Virus record (IMG/VR): IMGVR_UViG_3300027833_000169
Coordinates: 1-29,727 of that record
DNA: 29,727 nucleotides
From: a virus
Strand: one strand, 5' to 3'
Part shown: positions 2,489 through 16,347 of the stretch, in pieces
Layout: every line of letters starts with the position of its first letter
Position numbering within the stretch: the stretch's first letter is position 1
Notes under the pieces: model-generated
The model's input: only the letters and a program-made list of their open reading frames with translations
Database searches by the model: none
Told to the model about the DNA's origin: nothing
Position numbers and translations under genes: made by a program

Positions 2489-2929
2489 ATGATTTATTAT
2501 ATTGCGACCATTAAAAACGGTCAGATACAAACATTAAAATTAGCAAGCGGAGATAACGCAGCTGAAGGAGTCCAAGAAAATGGGACAACTTTAGTACACA
2601 TTGATTTTCCCATTGATAATCGAATAGAATTTATCGAGACTAATTACTGGGACGGTGAGTGGTTACAAAGAGAACGTCCACCAAATGAACACTCTTCGTG
2701 GAATGGGTCATCGTGGGAATGGGATCTTGAATCATTGATGCCTCAAGTACGATCTGCCCGTAATACTATGTTGGCGAGAAGTGACTGGACTCAAATGCCG
2801 GACTCTCCGTTATCAGAAGATGACAAGTTAGATTGGCAAATATATCGTGAGGAACTAAGAAGTCTATCCTTTGTCCAAGACGATATCTCTAACTTACAGG
2901 ATGTTGATTGGCCAAAAGAACCAAAATAA
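2489..2929 (+). CDS. Tail (fibre) assembly chaperone-like protein
   Basis: A 146-aa protein with a good ribosome-binding site (AGAGGA, 2480s). The C-terminal ~60 residues carry the pattern of the phage tail assembly chaperone-like family (Pfam Phage_tail_APC type): R-N-x-x-L-x-x-SDWTQ, then PLSEDDK, W-x-x-YR-x-x-LR, ending in W-P-x-x-P. All these elements are present (RNTMLARSDWTQMPDSPLSE; WQIYREELRSL; DWPKEPK). The N-terminal half is a small beta domain with aromatic WDGEWLQRER and WNGSSWEWD segments. Proteins with this tail often lie directly downstream of fibre genes and are thought to help fibre folding or assembly, and this one closes such a cluster. A structural rather than chaperone role cannot be excluded. 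Confidence 0.75.
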   Translation: MIYYIATIKNGQIQTLKLASGDNAAEGVQENGTTLVHIDFPIDNRIEFIETNYWDGEWLQRERPPNEHSSWNGSSWEWDLESLMPQVRSARNTMLARSDWTQMPDSPLSEDDKLDWQIYREELRSLSFVQDDISNLQDVDWPKEPK

Positions 2930-3105: not shown

Positions 3106-6100
3106 ATGTCAGCATCTAGTATACCACTAAAAATTAAGAATATCGATGGTGACCTACAGGAACTTACCCCAGCAGAAGAGATGTATCTCGCTGTAAAGGT
3201 AGGTGAAGCACTTGCAGAGGCCTCTGCTGGTGACATTGGAGACATCAGTCTAACCAATGGTGATAACATAGGTTCGTTCGTAGATTCATTCTATAATGAA
3301 CCATCGGGCACACACCCTATGTCTAACATCACTGGCACAACCGTAACTACTACTTTGAAACAGGTAAGTGGTTCCGCAAGTGAATCTGGTACTGATTTTG
3401 CCCGTCCTGTCGGTTATTACGCAGATAACGCAAATCCTGGCTTCTACGAAATGGTAGATGGGGATTTGGACAATCTCACAAATCGTGCACTGAAGAATCT
3501 TGAAACATTAGGACTTCAAGGAGCATTCCAACTTTCAACCACATCACCAGGCGGTGATTGGACAAAACATATTGATACAGTATTCTCGAATACTCTTGGT
3601 GACGGTACTACAACAGACTTTCATATCTGGAAAAGAACCACACTGGCATCACCCCCAGCTGGTATTGTAACCGCCCGGCCAGTTGCAACCGACTATGATG
3701 GATCTTCATCATTTAACGGTCTAAAAGAAATGTCCGACGCAGAGATCAAGTACACTCTCGGTCAACGTGCTAAGTCACTTAGGTCGACAGCAGGAGCCAT
3801 TGGTTCTTATCAACTCCGTTCATCTGTACAAGGTGTTCCAACATCAGCCGGAACTTGGGTTCCTCGTGGTTCTGCTGCGAATACTCAACGTACTATTGTT
3901 GATGGAACTTATTCTCGCACTCGCGCTTCTGCATACGCTCGTACAAGAGTTTCTGCATACAGTCGCAATCGTGTATCAACTTATACTCGAAACAGCGTAG
4001 ATACATTCGCACGTACGTTTGCTGGTGAATATACTGGTACCTATTCTCGTGAATTTGCCGGTGAATATACACGTGGCTATGCAGGGGATTACACTAGAAC
4101 TCGTCCCTCAACATATACCCGAAACCGATTAACTGCGTTCACTGGTTACTTTGCTGGTACTTATAACCGTGCAAGAGTTTCCGTTTACACACGCAATCGT
4201 ATAACACCATTTACAGGAACCTTCTCACGTACTCGTGCATCAGCATACACACGTGGTCGTGTTTCAACTTACGCAGGGACTTACGCAAGAACTCGTACTT
4301 CTGCTTACACTGCGGATTATACTCGTGCACGTGTATCAACATACACCGGAACTTACGCAGGAGTTTATTCTCGTAACCGTGTATCTGCATATGCTGGAAC
4401 TTACTCGCGTACACGTACTTCTGCTTATAGTCAACCATACACTCGTACACGTACTTCTGCATACTCTGCGGATTATACTCGTACACGTATAACTAACTAC
4501 ACTCGTGATCGTGTAACCAACTTTGCCGGCGTTTTCTCTCGTGCACGTGTTTCGACTTATACTCGTAATCGTGTTACAAACTTTGCTGGAAACTTCGTTG
4601 GTAACTATGCACGTGGATTCGTAGGTAACTATTCTCGTGGATTCGTTGGTAACTATGCTCGTGGATATGCTGGTGACTTCGTAGGTAACTACGCTCGTGT
4701 TTCTACTCGTACATCTACTCGTACTCGTTACTCTGCATATGCTCGCACCTCTACTCGTACTCGTTACTCTGCATACGCAAGAGATCGTGTTACTAACTTT
4801 GCCGGTAACTTTGTTGGTAACTATGCAACAACCTTTACTGGTGATTTCGTAGGTAACTATGCAAGAACTTCTACTAGAACTTCTACACGTACACTAAACT
4901 ATACTCGTACATTGTACTATGCTGGTAATTTCGTTGGAGATTACTCAAGAGCTCGTGCATTCTCCTATGTCGGAGATTATTCTCGTACTCGTGCAGTAGG
5001 AACTTCGTACACTGGTAACTATGGTCGTACTAGAACAGGTAACTACACTGGTAACTATTCTCGTGCTGCAGCTGGATACTACGTAGGTAATTACGCAAGA
5101 ACCTCTACTCGTGCTGTTGCATTCGTAGGTAACTTCACACGAAACCTGATCTCAACTCGGACAAGTATTACCCTCGGCGGAACATCATATTATGCTCGAT
5201 TCGTGTATAATCCAAACATGGGAGAACTGGTTCCGGTTTTCTATACCCGTACTGCAGCGGCCGGATATTACACTGGTAACTTTGTTACTGCCATGGCGTA
5301 TACGACGAACCGTTACCTGTCCAGTTATTACGCAGGAAACTACTCAAGGACTCGCGGCCAGAACTATGTAGGCAACTATGCTCGTAACCGTGCATTCTCT
5401 TTTGTTGGAGACTACTCAAGAGCTCGTGCCGCTACTCTTTACTACGTAGGTAACTACGGAAGAACTCGTACTGGTACCTACACTGGTAACTATGGTCGTA
5501 CAAGCACTCGAACTAGAACTGCTACAGGGACTTACGCAAGAACTGGATATTATGCTGGTAACTATGTCGGCGACTATGCAAGAACACGTATCACTAACTA
5601 TGTTGGCGACTTCACAAGAGATCGTATAACTAACTTTGCTGGTAACTTTGTCGGTAACTATGCTCGTGCATATGCCGGAGACTTTGTTGGCAACTATGCT
5701 CGTGGATATGCCGGAGACTTCGCTGGTAACTATACCGGAGAATACGCTCGTACTTCTGCAAGAACTCGTTACTCTGCATATATTCGTACTCGTACGTCGA
5801 CATATGTCCGTAACCGTTCTTCTGCGTACGCAAGAGATCGTATAACTAACTTCGCTGGTGACTTTACTGGTAACTATGCAAGAACCTTCACTGGTAACTA
5901 TGCACGTAACTATGCTGGCAACTTCATCGGTGATTTCGTTGGTGATTTCGCTGGTAACTATGTCGGTAACTACACTAGACAGTTCGGTGGCAACTATGTC
6001 GGTAACTATGCACGTAACTACGTAGGCGAATATGCCGGTACATATAGCCGTGGATTCGCTGGTGAGTACACAGGAACTTACACTGGTGTCTACTCGAACA

Positions 6101-6597
6101 CGTTCGGTGGTAACTATGTTGGTAACTATGCACGTAACTTCGCAGGCGAATACACTGGAACTTACTCGAATACTTTCACTGGTAATTACTCACGTGGTTT
6201 CTCTGGTCAGTACACTCGCGACTTCGCTGGTGACTTTACTGGTAACTATGCAAGAACATTTGCTGGTGAGTACACTGGAACGTATGCAAGTGACTTTGTA
6301 GGTGACTTCGTAGGTAACTATTCACGTGACTTCGTAGGTAACTACGGTCGAGTTCGTGTATCGGCTTACTCAAGACTACGTAACTCAACATACACTGGAA
6401 TTTACTCTCGTGACCGTGTATCAACATATGTTGGTGACTTCACTGGTAATTACTCACGTGGATTCACAGGCGATTACGCTCGTGACTTCGTAGGTAACTA
6501 TGCTAGAGCTTTCGTAGGTAATTACACTGGCGCAACAATCAGTGATACATTGGTTCACACACCAGAAACATATACCTTATACGTACGGGTTGCTTAA
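3106..6597 (+). CDS. Giant tetrapeptide-repeat virion protein
   Basis: A 1163-aa protein preceded by AGAGAAAG. Residues 1-268 form a non-repetitive head: IPLKIKNIDGDLQELTPAEE followed by a helical YLAVKVGEALAE, a start I recall in structural proteins of cyanophage-like T4 relatives, then YYADNANPGFYEM, FHIWKRTT and a Ser/Gly-rich linker. Residues about 269-1140 are an almost unbroken series of four-residue units [Y/F/R]-[A/V/T/S]-[G/R/S]-[N/D/T/A]. Arg/Ser-type units (YTRN RVST) dominate the first third and Gly-Asn-type units (FVGN YARG) the rest. I saw no Lys, His, Cys or Trp in the repeat region, and Tyr, Arg and Gly are strongly enriched. An insert near residues 686-715 (LGGTSYYARFVYNPNMGELV) breaks the register. 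A short non-repeat cap ends the protein. Similar Tyr/Arg/Gly-Asn repeats are, to my memory, annotated only as hypothetical or structural proteins. A long fibre or appendage is the best guess. Confidence 0.8.
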   Translation: MSASSIPLKIKNIDGDLQELTPAEEMYLAVKVGEALAEASAGDIGDISLTNGDNIGSFVDSFYNEPSGTHPMSNITGTTVTTTLKQVSGSASESGTDFARPVGYYADNANPGFYEMVDGDLDNLTNRALKNLETLGLQGAFQLSTTSPGGDWTKHIDTVFSNTLGDGTTTDFHIWKRTTLASPPAGIVTARPVATDYDGSSSFNGLKEMSDAEIKYTLGQRAKSLRSTAGAIGSYQLRSSVQGVPTSAGTWVPRGSAANTQRTIVDGTYSRTRASAYARTRVSAYSRNRVSTYTRNSVDTFARTFAGEYTGTYSREFAGEYTRGYAGDYTRTRPSTYTRNRLTAFTGYFAGTYNRARVSVYTRNRITPFTGTFSRTRASAYTRGRVSTYAGTYARTRTSAYTADYTRARVSTYTGTYAGVYSRNRVSAYAGTYSRTRTSAYSQPYTRTRTSAYSADYTRTRITNYTRDRVTNFAGVFSRARVSTYTRNRVTNFAGNFVGNYARGFVGNYSRGFVGNYARGYAGDFVGNYARVSTRTSTRTRYSAYARTSTRTRYSAYARDRVTNFAGNFVGNYATTFTGDFVGNYARTSTRTSTRTLNYTRTLYYAGNFVGDYSRARAFSYVGDYSRTRAVGTSYTGNYGRTRTGNYTGNYSRAAAGYYVGNYARTSTRAVAFVGNFTRNLISTRTSITLGGTSYYARFVYNPNMGELVPVFYTRTAAAGYYTGNFVTAMAYTTNRYLSSYYAGNYSRTRGQNYVGNYARNRAFSFVGDYSRARAATLYYVGNYGRTRTGTYTGNYGRTSTRTRTATGTYARTGYYAGNYVGDYARTRITNYVGDFTRDRITNFAGNFVGNYARAYAGDFVGNYARGYAGDFAGNYTGEYARTSARTRYSAYIRTRTSTYVRNRSSAYARDRITNFAGDFTGNYARTFTGNYARNYAGNFIGDFVGDFAGNYVGNYTRQFGGNYVGNYARNYVGEYAGTYSRGFAGEYTGTYTGVYSNTFGGNYVGNYARNFAGEYTGTYSNTFTGNYSRGFSGQYTRDFAGDFTGNYARTFAGEYTGTYASDFVGDFVGNYSRDFVGNYGRVRVSAYSRLRNSTYTGIYSRDRVSTYVGDFTGNYSRGFTGDYARDFVGNYARAFVGNYTGATISDTLVHTPETYTLYVRVA
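3910..6525 (+). repeat. 12-bp-period (tetrapeptide) repeat tract
   Basis: Codons 269-1140 of the gene at 3106. Aromatic or Arg residues recur every fourth codon, with common 12-bp words such as GGTAACTATGCA. Units are conserved mainly at protein level; third bases vary, so this is an old repeat under selection rather than a fresh microsatellite. The phase slips at least once, around the 5140-5360 insert. Confidence 0.9.
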
Positions 6598-6708: not shown

Positions 6709-7170
6709 ATGAGTCGTAAGCAATGGATGGATAATGCCTTCTGGGAAACAGAGGACAAGAAAGAAGTCAACTGTATTCTAGAACTTGAAGATGATGTGGG
6801 TCGTGTAACACGTCAACAAATGATGCTAAACCGTGCTAATAAAGATGGTAGTGATAATGAATTGTTTAATGAATTAATTGACGCTCTAGGGGAAGAGGCT
6901 ATTGATAAGGAAACTATCGATAGAGTCACTCGCAAGAAGGCAGAGAAAGAAGAAGAGAAAATGCGTGATGAAGAACATCTAAAGGCACGCAAACTTGAGA
7001 AACTTTTCAACTATAAGATGGAAGCTTTCGAAGTCGAAGAGATTAAGAATTCTAAAAACCGTAAGTTAAAGGCAAAATTGCGTCGTGCAAAATCAAGAAT
7101 TGAAGTAGATCTTTATTCAATCATGATTCTTCAAGACCAACTTGAGGCCGTAGCTGATGGAAAAGAGTAA
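6709..7170 (+). CDS. Charged coiled-coil protein of T4-like marine phage type
   Basis: A 153-aa protein with a strong ribosome-binding site (TTGGAG). The N-terminus MSRKQWMDNAFWETEDKKEV plus CILELEDDVGRVTRQ resembles a conserved hypothetical protein I recall in cyanophage-like T4 relatives. Residues about 70-105 are a Lys/Glu-rich helix (RKKAEKEEEKMRDEEHLKAR), followed by a basic helical segment (KNSKNRKLKAKLRRAKSRIE) and a hydrophobic helix near the C-terminus. There are no catalytic motifs, signal peptide or membrane segment. It overlaps the glycosyltransferase-like gene by 14 bases, so the two are probably translated together. Function is unknown; a scaffold, chaperone or minor virion component for the adjacent fibre system is possible. 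Confidence 0.7.
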   Translation: MSRKQWMDNAFWETEDKKEVNCILELEDDVGRVTRQQMMLNRANKDGSDNELFNELIDALGEEAIDKETIDRVTRKKAEKEEEKMRDEEHLKARKLEKLFNYKMEAFEVEEIKNSKNRKLKAKLRRAKSRIEVDLYSIMILQDQLEAVADGKE

Positions 7171-7894
7171 AGGTTTTATTATAGTTGCGTCTAAGAAACG
7201 CAACTTTTATTCGTATGCAATCAACCTTGCTGAATCTCTTAGGGATTATTATGAACCTGAAGAAGAATGTAAGATTTGTTTGGTAACCGAAGAACAATTT
7301 ATCGACGATCGTGGTCGTGATGTTGCAGACGATATTATCTTTTGTGATGATCACTATCGCGCTAAGTTATGGGGGATGGCAAAATCTCCATATGATATAA
7401 CAATGTACATTGATGCTGACATGGAATGTGAGCACGAAGATATTATTAAAGTTTGGGATGAAATGAAAGATCACGACGTGGTCTTCTCAGCATTGACTGA
7501 TGACCGTGATTACATTTATGCGGAACGTGATTTCTCCACACCAGAAGGTATGTCTAAATTTACTCTTTGTGGTGGTGTGTGTCTATATGATATGACTAAA
7601 CCAATAGTTCGTGAGTTTATGGATGATTGGTGGGACTTAACATACAGACAAATGAATGATACTTGGTGGCCAGAAGGTTATATTGATTCTCTAAAATCTT
7701 GGGATCAATTCTCTCTTTGGTGGTTAACTGAGAAAGAAGAAAAATATAAGGATCTTAAAGTCGGCATCTTTGATGATGACTTGAGATGGAATTACTATAA
7801 TGCTCTAAATTGGGCACAAACGAAACCCGATAATGGGCCAGTGATATTACGTCACTTCTCTGCTGGGTTAAATAAGGATACTCCAATCGTATGA
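7157..7894 (+). CDS. GT-A-fold glycosyltransferase-like protein
   Basis: A 245-aa protein. It starts with a strand/helix typical of nucleotide-sugar transferases (GFIIVASKKRNFYSYAINLA), then a second strand ICLVTEE. A DxD-type metal/nucleotide-sugar site lies at residues 86-88 (MYIDADMECE), preceded by an Ala-Lys-Leu segment (YRAKLWGMAKSPYD). Downstream are CGGVCLYD near residue 138, a Trp-rich acceptor-region-like stretch (WWDLTYRQ; NDTWWPEGY), and a late H-F-S-x-G-L-N-K motif near the C-terminus, as in GT8-like enzymes where a terminal His helps bind metal. The expected activity is transfer of a sugar from a nucleotide donor, in the host cytoplasm. Acceptor unknown: DNA, a phage virion protein or a host surface precursor. 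The stop overlaps the start of the oxygenase-like gene (ATGA), suggesting they act together. Confidence 0.75.
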   Translation: MEKSKGFIIVASKKRNFYSYAINLAESLRDYYEPEEECKICLVTEEQFIDDRGRDVADDIIFCDDHYRAKLWGMAKSPYDITMYIDADMECEHEDIIKVWDEMKDHDVVFSALTDDRDYIYAERDFSTPEGMSKFTLCGGVCLYDMTKPIVREFMDDWWDLTYRQMNDTWWPEGYIDSLKSWDQFSLWWLTEKEEKYKDLKVGIFDDDLRWNYYNALNWAQTKPDNGPVILRHFSAGLNKDTPIV

Positions 7895-8598
7895 CACAGG
7901 TAAACGACCAATATCTCAGACACGTCGAGGTTAACAGCCCTGAACTGCTAGAGATTCTAAACGAATATTCTAAGTTGCATACCATGAAAGGTTTTGAGGA
8001 AAACTGTCATCTTACTGCTGCACAACACATACGTCAACGTCCATACTTTGTGGGCGAGAAACATATGAATGAGATTGTTGCACAAGGTACAGGACACGAA
8101 GGTTTTCCGGATGAACTAGTTGGTTACAACTTTAAACTTTCAGACAAAGCGCACATGATGTTTGATAAGGACGCTGATCCTATTTTCAAACGTGACATGA
8201 CTCTACATCTTCGTGACCTAAACGATAAGATGATGAACTTTTTGTCTGTCAAACACAATGCTCTTGCCGCAGTGTATCCGCCAGGTGGATTCATCTCATG
8301 GCACAACAATGCAAACGCTCCGGGCTACAACTTAATCTTCTCTTATTCAGAAGATGGTTCTGGTTACTTCGACTATATTCATCCGGAAACTAAGGAAGTT
8401 ATTCGCTGTCAAGATAAGCCAGGCGAGTGGACTTGTAAAGCAGCATACTTCGGTCACTACGGAGAAGATAACAAGACATTGTATCATGCAGCTTCTACCG
8501 AAGACTGGCGTTGCACAGTATCTTATGTTTTTGATTATTCAGATGAGTCAGCTGACTTCCGCGAAATGGTCTTAGCAGATATCGAATCTGTAGAATAA
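7891..8598 (+). CDS. 2OG-Fe(II) oxygenase-like hydroxylase
   Basis: A 235-aa protein coupled by ATGA overlap to the glycosyltransferase-like gene. The C-terminal half has the jelly-roll pattern of a viral 2-oxoglutarate/Fe(II) oxygenase-like family known from cyanophage-like T4 relatives: YPPGGFISWHNNANAPGYNL with His138, a distal H199 (LYHAAS) and Arg207 (WRCTVSYVF) that would bind 2-oxoglutarate. The usual HxD is replaced by H-N-N at 138-140, so the acidic metal ligand is missing at the expected place; either Asn substitutes, another acid serves, or the enzyme is atypical. The N-terminal 100 residues are helical with HLTAAQHIRQRPYF. Expected role is hydroxylation of a protein or nucleic-acid substrate. 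Neighbours suggest virion protein modification, which is inference. Confidence 0.75.
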   Translation: MTQVNDQYLRHVEVNSPELLEILNEYSKLHTMKGFEENCHLTAAQHIRQRPYFVGEKHMNEIVAQGTGHEGFPDELVGYNFKLSDKAHMMFDKDADPIFKRDMTLHLRDLNDKMMNFLSVKHNALAAVYPPGGFISWHNNANAPGYNLIFSYSEDGSGYFDYIHPETKEVIRCQDKPGEWTCKAAYFGHYGEDNKTLYHAASTEDWRCTVSYVFDYSDESADFREMVLADIESVE

Positions 8599-8672: not shown

Positions 8673-9029
8673 ATGGCAACTTACGAAGATTTCACAATAG
8701 ATCAAGGTTCTGATTTAGCTCTACAATTAGAGTTAGTAAATCCTGATGGTTCAACAAAGAACCTTAATGGATATACAGTTAGTGCTAAGATGAAGAAAAC
8801 CTTTCGAAGCACAGCTGAAGACACCGTTGATTTCTTAGCAATTGTAGCAGATCCTGCTGAGAATGGTGTTGCAACACTCTCCCTCACAAATATTCAAACC
8901 GACGCACTCTCTGCTCGTGGTAGATATGTCTATGATGTCGAACTGAGTTACTTAGACTCTGCCGGTAATTCCATAGTAGAAAGAGTACTAGAAGGTAAAA
9001 TAAAAGTCAATCCTTCGGTCACAAGGTAA
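8673..9029 (+). CDS. Small beta-sandwich structural protein
   Basis: A 118-aa protein beginning MATYEDFTIDQGSDLALQLE, followed by LNGYTVSAKMKKTF, ADPAENGVATLSL and GRYVYDVELSYLD. This layout (an N-terminal 'DQGSD' strand, a 'GYTV-x-A-x-M' strand, a Gly-turn and 'G-x-Y-x-YD-x-E') is characteristic of small virion proteins in T4-like marine phages and resembles the N-terminal domain of BppU-type baseplate proteins. An immunoglobulin-like beta-sandwich is expected. No catalytic residues. Translation is probably limited to late transcripts by the hairpin just upstream. The next gene follows after 6 bases, so the two form a unit. The exact location in the virion is unknown. Confidence 0.7.
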   Translation: MATYEDFTIDQGSDLALQLELVNPDGSTKNLNGYTVSAKMKKTFRSTAEDTVDFLAIVADPAENGVATLSLTNIQTDALSARGRYVYDVELSYLDSAGNSIVERVLEGKIKVNPSVTR

Positions 9030-10440: not shown

Positions 10441-13400
10441 ATGGCATTTAGGCAGATTAAATCGCCTGCATTAGCAGACAAGGCGGTACTCAATACCAAA
10501 CTTGACGAAAGTGCAGTACAAGGACAATCTACCCTTACAGGTATGGCAAATCCATCTGACTGTTTTACACTTCTTTATGATGTCGGTACAGACTCATTAA
10601 AGAAAATTACAGCAGACGCTTTCTTCTCATCGTTCTCAACGACCGATTTGCAAGAAGGGACTAACCAATACTTCACACCTGAACGGGCACAAGCTGCAGT
10701 TGCAAGCGACATCGCAGCATCAGTACTAGTAGAAACTAACCGCGCAACAGCCGCAGAAACTCTACTACAATCTAACATCGACGCAGAAGCATCTACACGC
10801 GCTCAAGCAGATGTTACTCTACAATCTAACATCACTGCGGAAGAAACTCGCGCTAAATTGCGTGAAGATTCGATCGAAGCAGCATCTGTATCTGCTGATG
10901 CTGGTCTTTCTACACGTATTGACAACATCTTAAGCAACACAGATTCAGCTGCGATCGATTCGTTCGTAGAAGTAATCGCTGCATTCGAAGACGCGGATGA
11001 CGTATTATCAGGTTCTATCATTGCTAACTCTTCTGCAATTACTGCGGAAACTGCACGTGCAATTGGTAAAGAGACTGAAAACGCAACTGCAATTGCAGTA
11101 GAAACTGCTCGTGCTACTGCTGCTGAAGTTGCAAACACTTCTCTATTAAGTGCAGAAGAGATCGCACGTATTGCTGCGGACACCGCATTATCTGCACGTG
11201 TTACAACTGAAGAACAAACTTCTACATCTTTGCAGACGCAAATCACCACTGAAGTTGCTCGTGCTGGATCTGCTGAATCAGTTCTTACACAAGATCTTGC
11301 TGATGAAGTTGTCCGTGCTACTGGCGCAGAAGCTGCAAACGCATTAAACTTAACAGACGAAATCGATGCTCGTGCTGTTGCTGATACTCAGGTTCGTACT
11401 GATATCGCTGCAGACATCGTTACTGCACAGAATGCTGCTCAGGCACACGCCGAAGCACAAGACGCATTAAAGATTGGTGACGCATCTGTAGACGGAACTG
11501 CGAACAACACTGTAACTGATCGAATTGCATCTTCTAAGTCTGGTGCGGAAAGTGTTTCGGCTGCTGATGCTGCTGCTAAAGTACTTGTCGAGAAGACACG
11601 TGCAGAAGCTGCTGAGTCTGGTTTACAGTCACAGATCACTTCTAATGATGGAGACATTACTGATTTACAAACTGCGGATTCAACTGAAACTGCTGCTCGT
11701 ATCGCAGGCGATTCTGGTCTACAGTCACAAATCGACTTCATTACTACTAACACAGATCCAGCTGCTCTAGACTCACTAACTGAAATTGTTGCTGCATTCC
11801 AGTCTGCTGACTCGGACATGTCTGCTCTAGTTTCTTCTAACACTACCGCAATCTCTAGTGAGAACACTCGTGCTACAGGTGCTGAAACTGTTCTGCAAAC
11901 TAATATCACTGCTGAAGCGTCTACTCGTGCTATTGCGGATACTGGTTTACAGTCACAAATCGATAACATCACACTTGATTATATCGGTCGTGATTCAGAC
12001 ACTCTTGCAACTGCAAAATCATATACTGATCAAGAAGCAGACGCGCATCAAGCTGTCGCCACGGCACATGCTGATGCACAAGATGCTGCACTTATCGGAG
12101 ATGCTTCTGTAAATGGTACTGTCGGTAATACTGTTACTGCTCGTATCGCAACTGCTAAGTCAGAATCTAATGCTTTCACTAGTTCACAGGTTTCTGCTGA
12201 AGCAGCAACTCGTTTAGCTGCAGATGACACATTATCTCTACGCACTACTGTACTAGAAGGTGAGATGGACACTGTTGAAGCTCTTGCTGCACAGAATGAA
12301 ATCGATCTACGTGCAGAAGAAGTTGCTCGTGCATCTGGTGATTCAAGTCTACAGGGTCAAATCGACGCTGAAGAAGCTGCCAGAATTCTTGCTGACTCTA
12401 CTCTGACATCTAACCTAGCGACCGAAGTTGCTCGTGCACAAGGTGTTGAGGCAACTAATGCTGCCGCAGTCGTTACAGAACGTCAACGTGCAGAAGGTGT
12501 TGAAGCTGGACTACGTACTGATGTAAACACTAATACTGTAAACATTACTGCAAATGCTGGTTCTATTACTGCTGAACGAACTCGTGCTCTAGCGGCAGAA
12601 GCTGCATTAGGTGTACGTGTAGATACTACAGACGCACTTCAAGCTGCTGATCACGCTGATAACCAAGCACAGATTACTGCCGAAGTTACTCGTGCATCTG
12701 GTGTTGAAGCTGGTCTACAGACTTCAGTAGATTCTTTACAAGGACAAATCACTTCTAACGATTCTGATATTTCTGCTCTTGCAACTCTACAGTCAAGTGA
12801 CCACGATGATAACCAAGCACAAATTACTGCTGAAGTTACACGTGCATCTGCTGCGGAAGTAGTTAATGCTGATGCGGTTGTTGCTGAAACTACTCGTGCA
12901 ACTGGTATTGAAGCAGGTCTACGTACTGATGTTGATTCTAATCAGACTCAGATCACTGCAAACGACGCAGACATTCTTGCTCTAGAAACTCTACAAGCTG
13001 CTGATCACTCTGATAACCAAGCACAAATTACTGCTGAAGTTGCTCGCGCTACTGCCGCAGAAGTTGTTAACGCTGCCGCTACTGCTACTGAAAAATTACG
13101 TGCAGAAGGTATCGAAGCTGGTTTACGTACTGATGTTGATTCTAACCAAACGCAAATCACTGCAAATGATGCAGACATTCTTGCATTAACAAATCTACAA
13201 GCTGCTGACCACGCAGACAACCAGACACAAATTACTGCTGAAGTAACTCGTGCAACTGGAATCGAAGCTGGTTTACGCACTGATGTTACAACTCTAGAAG
13301 GTCGTGTTGACTTTATCGTTTCTAACGATGATGGTGCTGCTCTAGATTCTCTAACAGAAATTGTTTCTGCATTCCAAGACGCAGATTCTGATCTAACGGG

Positions 13401-16347
13401 TGTTATTACTGCTAACTCTGGTCGTCTAACTTCTGTCGAGTCACGCGCAACTTCTCTAGAGACTCGTACTACTGATGTTGAAGCTCGCGCTACTGCTGTT
13501 GAGTCACGTGCAACTGCTCTGGAAACTGAACAGGGACTACAAGGTGGTCGTCTTACAGTCAACGAAAGTGACATTGACGCTCTAGAAGCTAAGCAAGGTT
13601 CTGCTACTCTAGCAACTACTGCAACTAACGTATCTGCCGCAATCAATGAGATTCACTCAGAACTAGATACTGAAGCTTCTAACGTCGATACTCTACAAAC
13701 AGAGATGGACGCAGTCGAAGTACGTGCAACTGCTCTAGAAACTGAACAGGGACTACAAGGTGGTCGTCTAACTTCTGTCGAAGGTCGTGCTACTGGTGTT
13801 GAGTCACGTGCAACTGCGCTTGAAACTAAGCAAGGTTCTGCTACTCTAGTCACTGTCGCAACTGATCTATCTGCTGCAATCAACGAATTGCACTCAGAAA
13901 TGGGTACTTCTCTTACTGATTTTGATGCTCTAGTAGCTCGTGTAACTACAGAAGAAGGTAATGTCGATACTCTACAGTCAGAAATGACCGCAGTAGAAGG
14001 ACGTGCAACTTCATTAGAAACTCGTGTAACTACAGAAGAAGGTAATGTTGACACTCTCCAGACTCAAATGGGTTCTACAGTACTTGCTACTGTCGCAACT
14101 GATGTTACTGGTGCAGTCAACGAGATCCACTCTGAACTAGACGCAGAAGCTGGTAAGGTCTCTACTCTAGAAAGTGAAATGAATGCTGTCGAAGGACGTG
14201 CAACTGCTGTTGAGTCACGTGCAACTGCTCTAGAAACTGAACAGGGACTACAAGGTGGTCGTCTAACAGTTAACGAGAGTGACATCGATGACTTAGAAAC
14301 TAAGTTAGGTACTGGTGTTTTCGATACTACTTCACAAATCATTACTGGTGCAGTCAATGAACTTCATGGTGAAGTTAATACTAATACTGCTGGACTTGTC
14401 GCTGTTGTTTCTCGTGCCGATGCCGATAGTGATGCACTTGCATCTGAAATCGTATCACGCACCGCTGCTGACACACTAATCCGTACTGATCTTGCTGCAC
14501 TTAGAACTACTGATCAAGCAGACTACATTGCTCGTGACGCGGCTGTTCTTGCATCTGCACAGTCTTACGCAGAAAGTGAAGCAGACGATGGCGAAGCCGC
14601 TGCTAAGATTTACGCAGACGGAATCGTTGCTAGTGAAGCAACTCTACGTGACAATGCTGATATCGTACTTGCTGGTCAAATTACTACTGAAGCAACTGCA
14701 CGTCAAGTCGCAGATAATGGTCTAGATACACGACTAGGTGTTGTTGAAGGCGAAATGTCTGCAACTCAACTTGCTGCTGGCGTAAATGCTGATGGAACAT
14801 ACGATACTCCAACAAGTACTACTCACCTTAATGCCTCTACTTCTCTAGCAGACGCTGATAAGAAGTTAGATACTGCACTCACCACTGAAAGTGCTTCACG
14901 TGTTTCTGGTGATGCAAGCTTGCAATCACAGATCGATGCTGAAATTGCTCGTGCTGGTGCTGCGGAAGGTGTTAACTCTACTGGACTAGCTGCTGAGATC
15001 GTACGTGCTACAGCTGCAGAAGTTGCAAACGGTGTATTAATCACCACTAACGCTGCTTCAATTGCATCTGAGTCATCTCGTGCACAAGGTGTTGAAGGTT
15101 CTCTACAAGGTCAAATCGACTTCATTACTTCAAACACTGACAGTGATGCTCTCGATTCATTGACTGAGATCGTTGCCGCATTCCAAAATACTGATGGTAC
15201 TCTATCAGGTCTAATCACACAGAACCAAACTGACATTGCAACTAATGCTTCAGGTCTTGCTCAGGAAATCAGTGATCGAATTGCTGGTGATACTGCGGTA
15301 CGTGGCGAGTTCGCTGCTGCTGACGCTGGGTTACAAACTCAAATTGACGGATTAGTATCTAAGTCCGGAGACGCGATGACTGGTGTCCTAGCAATGGGTG
15401 GAAACAAAGTTTCTGGTGTTGCAACTGGTACTGAAACTGCTGATGCGGTTAACAAAGGTCAAATGGACGCTGGTCTTGCTGCTCAACACATCTCTCAGTT
15501 CTCAACAACTAACCTTCCAGAAGGTAGTAACGAATACTTCACAACTGCGAAAGTACATGCTGCAGTAAGTGTAGTTGACGTTGCTGGTGAAGGTAAGGTA
15601 TCTGAGACTGATGGTGTGTTCTCTATAGACACTTCTAAGGCATTTGTTGAACTATCCGATGTTACTGATTCAACAATTGTTGGTAAAGAAGGTTTTGTTG
15701 CTCGTGTTAAGACAGATGGTTCAGGTATTGAACTTATAGACCCTGCTCAGTTATCATTCAATGACGCAAAACGTCAAGTGATTTCTGGTGACGGTGCACA
15801 GAGTACATTCGCTCTAAACTTCTACACTCAAGAAGCTAACGCAATGGTATTTGTTGGTGGTGTTATTCAGGATCCATCGGTTCACTATACGATTGATGCT
15901 GTTAATCAACAAATTACTTTCATGGCGGCTATCCCAGTTGGAACTCAAGCGGTAGTTATCGCTCAGTCTACTAACTCGGTTGGTGTACTAGATCCTAAGT
16001 CGGTCGGTCTTGAAACTCTTGCTGATAACATCAAAGTCTTCGAACAGGGTAACGATGTTGTTGTTGGAACTTCTGCTACAGTAGTTTCTACATTCAACAA
16101 AGTGACTACACGTTCTGCTAAGTACGTAGTCACCGTAGAAAATAACGGTGAATTCGAAACTCGCGAATGTCTAGTTATCCATGACGGAACAGAAGCATAT
16201 ATAACTGAGTACGGTATTCTATTCACAGGTAGTGATGTACTTGGTGATACTGACGTTCAGGTAAACGGTTCAAGTGTTGAGTTGACATATACAGCTTCGG
16301 TTGCTGGTGCAGTAGTATCAGTATCCGCTTCGTATATCGACGCATAA
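10441..16347 (+). CDS. Giant coiled-coil tail fibre protein (1968 aa)
   Basis: Ribosome-binding site TAGGAG. The N-terminus (MAFRQIKSPALADKAVLNTK) leads to a fibre motif TTDLQEGTNQYFTPERAQAA near residue 67. That motif recurs near residue 1690 as TTNLPEGSNEYFTTAKVHAA, so the shaft is bracketed by two copies. Between them are about 1600 residues of Ala/Thr/Glu/Asp-rich pseudo-repeats (EVTRATGIEAGLRTDV; VESRATALETEQGLQGGRLT) expected to form a long trimeric coiled coil. At least four copies of an 'ALDSLTEIVAAFQ-x-ADSD' module punctuate it. Residues 796-931 are two tandem 68-residue units. The distal ~250 residues are beta-rich: a FVGGVIQDPSVHYTIDA module at about 1784-1842, then RECLVIHDGTEAYITEYGIL. 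By analogy it is a long tail fibre whose C-terminal end contacts the host receptor. No chaperone gene follows directly. Confidence 0.85.
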   Translation: MAFRQIKSPALADKAVLNTKLDESAVQGQSTLTGMANPSDCFTLLYDVGTDSLKKITADAFFSSFSTTDLQEGTNQYFTPERAQAAVASDIAASVLVETNRATAAETLLQSNIDAEASTRAQADVTLQSNITAEETRAKLREDSIEAASVSADAGLSTRIDNILSNTDSAAIDSFVEVIAAFEDADDVLSGSIIANSSAITAETARAIGKETENATAIAVETARATAAEVANTSLLSAEEIARIAADTALSARVTTEEQTSTSLQTQITTEVARAGSAESVLTQDLADEVVRATGAEAANALNLTDEIDARAVADTQVRTDIAADIVTAQNAAQAHAEAQDALKIGDASVDGTANNTVTDRIASSKSGAESVSAADAAAKVLVEKTRAEAAESGLQSQITSNDGDITDLQTADSTETAARIAGDSGLQSQIDFITTNTDPAALDSLTEIVAAFQSADSDMSALVSSNTTAISSENTRATGAETVLQTNITAEASTRAIADTGLQSQIDNITLDYIGRDSDTLATAKSYTDQEADAHQAVATAHADAQDAALIGDASVNGTVGNTVTARIATAKSESNAFTSSQVSAEAATRLAADDTLSLRTTVLEGEMDTVEALAAQNEIDLRAEEVARASGDSSLQGQIDAEEAARILADSTLTSNLATEVARAQGVEATNAAAVVTERQRAEGVEAGLRTDVNTNTVNITANAGSITAERTRALAAEAALGVRVDTTDALQAADHADNQAQITAEVTRASGVEAGLQTSVDSLQGQITSNDSDISALATLQSSDHDDNQAQITAEVTRASAAEVVNADAVVAETTRATGIEAGLRTDVDSNQTQITANDADILALETLQAADHSDNQAQITAEVARATAAEVVNAAATATEKLRAEGIEAGLRTDVDSNQTQITANDADILALTNLQAADHADNQTQITAEVTRATGIEAGLRTDVTTLEGRVDFIVSNDDGAALDSLTEIVSAFQDADSDLTGVITANSGRLTSVESRATSLETRTTDVEARATAVESRATALETEQGLQGGRLTVNESDIDALEAKQGSATLATTATNVSAAINEIHSELDTEASNVDTLQTEMDAVEVRATALETEQGLQGGRLTSVEGRATGVESRATALETKQGSATLVTVATDLSAAINELHSEMGTSLTDFDALVARVTTEEGNVDTLQSEMTAVEGRATSLETRVTTEEGNVDTLQTQMGSTVLATVATDVTGAVNEIHSELDAEAGKVSTLESEMNAVEGRATAVESRATALETEQGLQGGRLTVNESDIDDLETKLGTGVFDTTSQIITGAVNELHGEVNTNTAGLVAVVSRADADSDALASEIVSRTAADTLIRTDLAALRTTDQADYIARDAAVLASAQSYAESEADDGEAAAKIYADGIVASEATLRDNADIVLAGQITTEATARQVADNGLDTRLGVVEGEMSATQLAAGVNADGTYDTPTSTTHLNASTSLADADKKLDTALTTESASRVSGDASLQSQIDAEIARAGAAEGVNSTGLAAEIVRATAAEVANGVLITTNAASIASESSRAQGVEGSLQGQIDFITSNTDSDALDSLTEIVAAFQNTDGTLSGLITQNQTDIATNASGLAQEISDRIAGDTAVRGEFAAADAGLQTQIDGLVSKSGDAMTGVLAMGGNKVSGVATGTETADAVNKGQMDAGLAAQHISQFSTTNLPEGSNEYFTTAKVHAAVSVVDVAGEGKVSETDGVFSIDTSKAFVELSDVTDSTIVGKEGFVARVKTDGSGIELIDPAQLSFNDAKRQVISGDGAQSTFALNFYTQEANAMVFVGGVIQDPSVHYTIDAVNQQITFMAAIPVGTQAVVIAQSTNSVGVLDPKSVGLETLADNIKVFEQGNDVVVGTSATVVSTFNKVTTRSAKYVVTVENNGEFETRECLVIHDGTEAYITEYGILFTGSDVLGDTDVQVNGSSVELTYTASVAGAVVSVSASYIDA
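12826..13233 (+). repeat. Two tandem 204-bp units in the fibre shaft
   Basis: Units 12826-13029 and 13030-13233 each encode 68 residues starting TAEV-x-RA-x-AAEVVNA and ending LQAADH-x-DNQ-x-QI. They differ at few residues. A shortened 50-residue version precedes them and a partial copy follows, indicating growth by unequal recombination. Confidence 0.85.
13510..14264 (+). repeat. Dispersed 44-bp near-identical repeats in the fibre shaft
   Basis: Copies at 13510-13553, 13726-13769 and 14221-14264 encode ATALETEQGLQGGRL. The last two are identical and the first has one mismatch. They are embedded in larger related modules (AINEIHSELD; EEGNVDTLQ), all in frame. Confidence 0.85.

Follow-up and report, generated by a model that had tools for sequence, protein, structure and literature searches.

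A four-residue repeat protein of a marine T4-like phage as a probable giant fold-back tail fibre

The window analysed here is the whole of IMG/VR virus record IMGVR_UViG_3300027833_000169, a 29.7-kb stretch (29,727 nucleotides) that carries T4-like portal, sheath, tube, terminase and neck genes and to which only Phage C48C1 (Kyanoviridae), of 50,697 phage records, is closely related. The gene in question is an open reading frame (ORF) of the tail region, positions 3106-6597, whose product contains a long four-residue repeat. A tail-fibre chaperone gene lies upstream of it, and the gene of an L-shaped-fibre assembly protein (LtfC) and neck genes lie downstream. The features of the locus are compiled in Table 1.

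Table 1. Features of the repeat ORF and its neighbourhood. Positions are those of the window, except in the last row, where they are given by locus of the relatives (labels beginning with L). AF2, AlphaFold2; aa, amino acids.
Feature	Position	Strand	Evidence
Tail-fibre assembly chaperone (Phage_tail_APC), directly upstream of the repeat ORF	2489..2929	+	PF16778, E 3e-14; phrog_4912
Repeat ORF of the putative fibre, whole, 1163 aa	3106..6597	+	
N-terminal base domain, residues 1-270, motif SIPLKI..GDLQE.TP.EE.YLA	3106..3915	+	AF2; conserved in relatives
Predicted outgoing stem arm, residues 269-685	3910..5160	+	Mirror pairing with the return arm (417 pairs, no gaps)
Predicted tip, residues 686-723 (38 residues), TSITLGGTSYYARFVYNPNMGELVPVFYTRTAAAGYYT, repeat-free, centre of the repeat	5161..5274	+	Mirror alignment ends here
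Predicted return stem arm, residues 724-1140	5275..6525	+	Mirror pairs with the outgoing arm
C-terminal tail, residues 1141-1163 and stop, ends ETYTLYVRVA	6526..6597	+	AF2; conserved in nearly all relatives
153-aa charged protein, first cassette gene, possible helper	6709..7170	+	Follows the repeat gene in related loci
Glycosyltransferase, glycogenin-like GT-A fold (YIDADME, WDQFSLWW, RHFSAGLNKD)	7157..7894	+	AF2, Foldseek
Probable 2OG-Fe(II)-oxygenase-like protein (YPPGGFISWHNNxN ... H199 ... R207xT)	7891..8598	+	Invariant motifs, 25 sequences
LtfC-like / L-shaped tail-fibre assembly protein	8673..9029	+	phrog_3304; PF23926 below cut-off
Upstream period-four ORFs of some relatives	L061:1076-5389, L018:1037-5386, L036:1275-5378, L063:419-4981, L009:1039-5442		

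The repeat comprises residues 269-1140, which correspond codon for codon to positions 3910-6525, the stretch that an earlier note made from the letters alone had singled out. None of its 872 residues is lysine, histidine, cysteine or tryptophan, as that note had stated. The identity autocorrelation has its maxima at multiples of four (lags 4, 8, 12 and 16 give z-scores of 8.9, 16.9, 20.4 and 13.4 against shuffled sequences), and odd lags are depleted. Position 1 of the unit is Tyr (47%), Phe (23%) or Arg (19%), position 2 is Ala, Thr, Val or Ser, position 3 is Gly (40%), Arg (34%) or Ser (12%), and position 4 is Thr, Asn, Asp or Ala. The period of four is real, but it is not the strict one that had been described, since the phase slips seven times between residues 631 and 779 and the centre, at about 686-723, is free of the repeat. 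Identical units are written with many different codon strings (FVGN has 13 copies in six spellings and YART nine copies in eight), indicating selection on the protein and ruling out a recent DNA microsatellite; a frameshift artefact is ruled out by a single clean ORF with relatives.

Searches of Pfam, PHROGs, NCBIfam and the PDB sequences with the whole protein were empty or insignificant, the sole PHROG match being weak and of unknown function (E 0.0015). The period of four differs from those of pentapeptide repeats, collagen and other named repeat families, and no family of this kind was matched in Pfam or NCBIfam. Foldseek comparison of the whole AF2 model with the PDB and BFVD gave no match below E 0.6, in a search that the unstructured stem of the model may blunt. 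Four consecutive YxG[ND] units in bacterial genomes occurred, among the matches listed, in short low-complexity tracts of about 12 units or fewer, and our literature searches gave no matching account of a tail fibre with tetrapeptide repeats or a giant hairpin. The family searches and the tail-gene setting bear out the earlier view of a phage tail-region protein whose fibrous repeat fits no named structural family. The weak matches to the repeat among phage records include one Enterococcus phage record.

The two halves of the repeat mirror each other. In the window, residue i pairs with residue 1409-i in one gapless register of 417 pairs, in which residues 269-685 face residues 724-1140. For the corresponding analysis of relatives we drew on metagenomic, partly redundant contigs (68 loci from one viral-contig scan and more from later scans), and the register was tested without using insertions or deletions (indels), by comparing residue s+i with residue e-i+k, where s and e are the first and last aromatic residues of the repeat. 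Across 46 non-redundant relatives, the mutual information had its maximum exactly at k=0, with 0.716 bits where most other multiples of four give about 0.46, and the maximum stays there when the stretches 0-150, 150-300 and 300-450 residues away from the base are analysed separately. Secondary maxima at k=+2 and k=-2 would fit diagonal neighbours on a beta ladder. When each protein was scored in turn by leave-one-out with the window added (n=47), its own best register among 121 offsets was exactly 0 in 40 cases; the seven proteins off zero include some that carry globular inserts or whose repeat is of another flavour. Combining arms from different sequences lowered the mutual information from 0.716 to 0.408 bits (standard deviation 0.017, maximum 0.455 of 50), and therefore the two arms co-evolve within each protein.

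The co-variation can be written as a pairing code. Where position 1 faces position 1, the pairs Tyr-Tyr (1465 observed, 840 expected), Phe-Arg (447 against 139) and Arg-Phe are favoured, while Tyr-Phe, Tyr-Arg and Arg-Arg (9 against 139) are avoided. Where position 3 faces position 3, Arg-Gly, Gly-Arg, Ser-Arg, Arg-Ser and Thr-Gly are favoured, and Arg-Arg (39 observed, 516 expected), Ser-Gly (16 against 283) and Gly-Ser are avoided. The dependence is weaker where positions 2 and 4 face each other (about 0.2 bits compared to 0.58). In the window, the sum of 1409 gives 161 allowed and 23 disallowed pairs, and none of the ten neighbouring sums examined gives more than 94 allowed pairs. The two flavours of unit reported before, Arg-Ser/Thr early and Gly-Asn late, do exist, but the description as a mere early and late split does not hold: the halves are complementary in mirror order, and by the cross-strand code the two flavours are complementary partners.

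The code also recognizes sequences on which it was not trained. The pairing matrix was built without the window, C48C1 and the groups of loci L069, L147 and L143. With this matrix, the fold-back score of the window was 271, compared to 131 (standard deviation 7.4, maximum 152) for shuffled return-arm units, that is, 19 standard deviations above. C48C1 yielded 1029 pairs and a tip of 73 residues, and its return arm holds all six of its inserts, which are 46-269 residues long. Members of the groups L069, L147 and L143 scored z 27-34, compared to 9-12 for two-protein chimeras and 1.6 for an unrelated repetitive control; as the negative control for mirror scoring we used the 1968-aa repetitive protein encoded at positions 10441-16347 of the window. 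The gene of this control contains a 204-bp DNA tandem repeat at 12798-13258 and is unrelated to the four-residue repeat. The inserts of C48C1 (locus L001) appear as six globular bulges within residues 1791-3256, several of which start with GPTTE, GPTTA or GPEAT, and none is found on the outgoing arm.

Alignments of close relatives show equal-sized insertions at two places that are mirror images about the centre. They came to light when indel lengths, which are not clean modulo four, were inspected. In 11 comparisons, some of which share sequences, there were 11 mirrored pairs of equal size, compared to a mean of 0.33 and a maximum of 3 in 2000 randomisations. The clearest case is that of L006 and L011, with +124, -44, -28 and +80 on the way outward and +52, +28, -28, -44 and +124 on the way inward. 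Mirrored duplications of this kind may be regarded as the protein counterpart of compensatory changes in RNA stems.

The structural setting of the repeat was derived from an AF2 model built with 24 aligned relatives, in which strand pairing was inferred from the secondary-structure string. The predicted local distance difference test (pLDDT) is mostly 75-94 for residues 4-270 and 1137-1163; taken in blocks of ten residues, it is about 71-94 in the N-terminal base domain. A predicted strand at 1137-1161 (pLDDT about 90) closes the base domain in a register running from 251:1158 to 272:1137; its only likely partner is the long strand 251-272 at the end of the N-terminal domain, and therefore the repeat is inserted between two neighbouring strands of one domain. 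At the exact centre, strands 698-700 and 709-711 flank a turn in a weak hairpin of low confidence. All of these strands, predicted without the pairing code, fit i+j=1409. The monomer prediction that the earlier note had proposed as a check succeeded for the base domain and the C-terminal strand but left the repeat unmodelled. Since the model brings the C-terminal strand back to the N-terminal domain, no single chain end would lie at the far end of the fibre. The relatives range from 534 to 3884 aa, with a tip of 11-155 aa; of their parts, the repeat alone differs greatly in length, and nearly all of them keep the N-terminal IPLK...GDLQE.T..E..YLAY and the C-terminal G.TI.....ETYTLYVR.A. Some loci (L125/L126, L132, L143, L147, L151 and L069/L154) carry tandem pairs of repeat ORFs, each with its own base and C-terminal strand.

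Taken together, these results make it probable that this marine phage protein is a giant fold-back needle tail fibre with a split base, two arms paired in exact register and a tip at the turn. Computation gave the register, the pairing code and the mirrored indels, and AF2 the split base domain; we infer the other properties of the fibre. A globular base made of residues 1-270 and the C-terminal strand would carry the inserted stem. The chain would leave the base, extend for about 417 residues, turn at the small tip, and run back antiparallel beside the outgoing arm, keeping i+j=1409, to complete the base domain. The stem would then be an antiparallel beta ribbon in which the pairing code sets one aromatic/Arg face and one small face of Ala, Thr, Val and Asn. 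As an extended beta strand rises about 0.33 nm per residue, the fully extended stem would measure about 140 nm. By analogy with the six-stranded needle of T4 gp37, the oligomer would most likely be a trimer, whose base would attach to the virion and whose variable tip would contact the host.

Several observations weigh against this reading. AF2 leaves the stem unstructured (pLDDT about 25), so that the ribbon geometry is not directly predicted, and Foldseek found no fold match for the base domain in the PDB or BFVD. Local windows of 40 residues fix the register clearly only for residues 269-588 (seven of eight windows), and they do not fix it in the last 100 residues before the tip. Bulges are required in some relatives, and one short protein, L069:5482, reaches only z 2.6. 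Finally, an antiparallel homodimer, in which residue i of one chain would face residue 1409-i of a second, with the bases at opposite ends and no central turn, would give co-variation at constant i+j and mirrored indels just as a fold-back hairpin does. We regard this dimer as improbable, because AF2 pairs the C-terminal strand with the N-terminal domain of the same chain, although a domain swap could mimic this, and because a repeat-free centre with inserts of up to 155 residues suits a tip and is awkward at a dimer crossing.

Slightly less credence is due to a beta-solenoid, beta-roll or triple-stranded beta-helix in which successive units are stacked along the axis. The hydrophobic-x-Gly-x units do recall the VTGN repeats of S-RIM2 structural proteins, as well as the VxG of the T4 gp5 beta-helix. 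However, stacking predicts a short-range correlation between residues i and i+period, not a mirror correlation of the halves or mirrored indels, and there is no sequence or fold match in the PDB. The GNVTG-type repeats of cyanophage S-RIM2 share the period of four and the hydrophobic-x-Gly-Asn/Asp pattern, with a weak tblastn match (29% identity), but they have Val or Leu in place of aromatic residues or Arg, form a short tract, follow another N-terminal region and lack the downstream genes described below. The triple-stranded beta-helix of T4 gp5C is built of the octapeptide VxGxxxxx; like our repeat, it is fibrous, comes from a phage and has a hydrophobic residue followed two positions later by Gly, and it differs in its period and in having no fold-back. 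Where PMC4576200 describes gp5C, it has three chains wound about a common axis.

Least probable of all, and very much so, is an intrinsically disordered Tyr/Arg "sticker" polymer forming an elastic or condensate-like appendage, which would agree with the low pLDDT over the repeat and with its low complexity rich in Tyr, Arg and Gly but gives no reason for one register over 417-1029 pairs, for the avoidance of Arg-Arg or for matched indels. The earlier suggestion of a new fibrous fold was right in spirit, whereas the forms proposed for it fared poorly: neither a tight solenoid or stacked beta-roll nor an elastic or condensate sticker polymer predicts the co-variation of i with 1409-i in a single register or the equal-sized mirrored insertions.

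The fold-back fibre has its closest known counterpart in the needle of T4 gp37 (collar D10, stem and tip D11). The topology of nested insertion predicted for the repeat protein is like that of the needle. Both have two in-register antiparallel arms inserted in a split base, here indicated by the mirror register, the matched indels and AF2, and in both a tip is inserted at the turn. The stem of T4 gp37 has 50 pairs, compared to 417 in the window (about 8 times longer) and 1029 in C48C1 (about 20 times). The T4 needle has His-coordinated iron, whereas the window repeat has no His. We know of no tetrapeptide code in T4 gp37. The T4 needle is nested, with a base split into 811-881 and 1010-1026, arms of equal length at 882-931 and 960-1009 and a tip at 932-959, and a Gly-Phe contact is reported between its subunits (PMC6957217); it is described as six-stranded and antiparallel (PMC7291167, PMC9659904). 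The search for homology to gp37 or gp12 gave no PDB sequence match and no Foldseek match to the collar fold, although disorder of the modelled stem may make fold searching less sensitive. The likeness is therefore one of working principle and not of family membership.

If the fold-back needle is correct, few longer fold-back beta structures have been proposed for a single chain. It would also explain how one gene allows some marine T4-like phages to make long fibres of different lengths, about 200 to more than 1000 pairs, in which the tip that contacts the host is inserted at the turn and one arm bears additional domains. Its pairing rules, readable from sequence alone, would be a candidate design code for long protein fibres.

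Downstream of the repeat gene there is a cassette of three genes, for proteins of 153, about 245 and about 235 aa, which follows it in essentially every locus. The second product is a glycosyltransferase whose AF2 model has a predicted template modelling (pTM) score of 0.83 and whose best Foldseek match is glycogenin (E 1.7e-6), followed by GlyE and LgtC. It resembles glycogenin and the GT8 family in its GT-A fold, its DxD and its C-terminal H-x-S..K motif, the last lying in a His region of low pLDDT; identity is 15-17% and the template modelling (TM) score about 0.45, with the last 35 residues modelled poorly. No Pfam match to GT8 was obtained, PF00535 was weak and below the cut-off, and a GT8 profile comparison gave P 0.013. 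In the third product, H138-N-N140, H199 and R207-x-T209 are invariant or nearly so, with Asn where Asp is usual; there was no Pfam hit, and profile comparison gave a weak match at the motif to PF13640 and PF05118. The comparison sets for GT8, PF13640 and PF05118 were collected by hand, and both enzymes matched weakly. The pattern WHNNxN...H...RxT is suggestive of a 2-oxoglutarate (2OG)-Fe(II) oxygenase.

The repeat and the cassette occur together almost without exception. A repeat ORF is present at all 119 glycosyltransferase loci with at least 2.5 kb upstream, and a glycosyltransferase lies within 4 kb in 114 of 117 repeat loci, the other three carrying it further downstream; since the loci of the two scans overlap, these counts are not independent. 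Among phage records, C48C1 is the only one with the base domain, the transferase or the oxygenase, whereas the LtfC-like gene occurs in 43, including phages without the repeat module; neither enzyme is present in the loci around LtfC in HTVC008M and P-HM2. From this association it is conceivable, at slightly under even chances, that the two enzymes modify the fibre, perhaps at Tyr, Thr/Ser or Asn. Glycogenin glucosylates a tyrosine. If the Tyr face of the fibre is buried, Thr, Ser, Asn or the tip would be likelier targets. We give similar weight, again just short of one half, to the alternative that both act on the host surface or on other virion proteins, a question independent of the fold. 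Phage glycosyltransferases often modify host polysaccharide, synteny alone is weak because gene order is conserved across the whole tail block including LtfC, and a single ancestral gain could explain the co-occurrence. Against this alternative stand the near-complete co-occurrence, the contrast with the wider distribution of LtfC, and a distant clade that has an Arg-poor repeat and adds a second glycosyltransferase in the same cassette.

The neighbouring glycogenin-fold enzyme makes the role of enzyme genes next to tail-fibre genes testable. More tentatively, and as less likely than not, we propose a new class of fibre combining a one-chain ribbon of 400 to more than 1000 code-specified pairs, mirrored evolution of length and side chains modified by both enzymes.

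The second glycosyltransferase (phrog_1962, E 1e-8 to 2e-9) belongs to the clade of L069 and L152-L157, in which the repeats are Arg-poor and Tyr-rich; at L152:11454-12206 and L154:11481-12248 it comes after the oxygenase-like gene. Pelagibacter phage Mosig (L158) has a different block upstream of LtfC, with two Asp_Arg_Hydrox proteins, aminotransferases, a methylase and an acetyltransferase, so that fibre genes with neighbouring enzyme genes may be a more general pattern. In some relatives the repeat gene is preceded by a different long ORF that scores for aromatic units of period four as well (Table 1), and that of L061 ends in TPTYTPTFTPTY.

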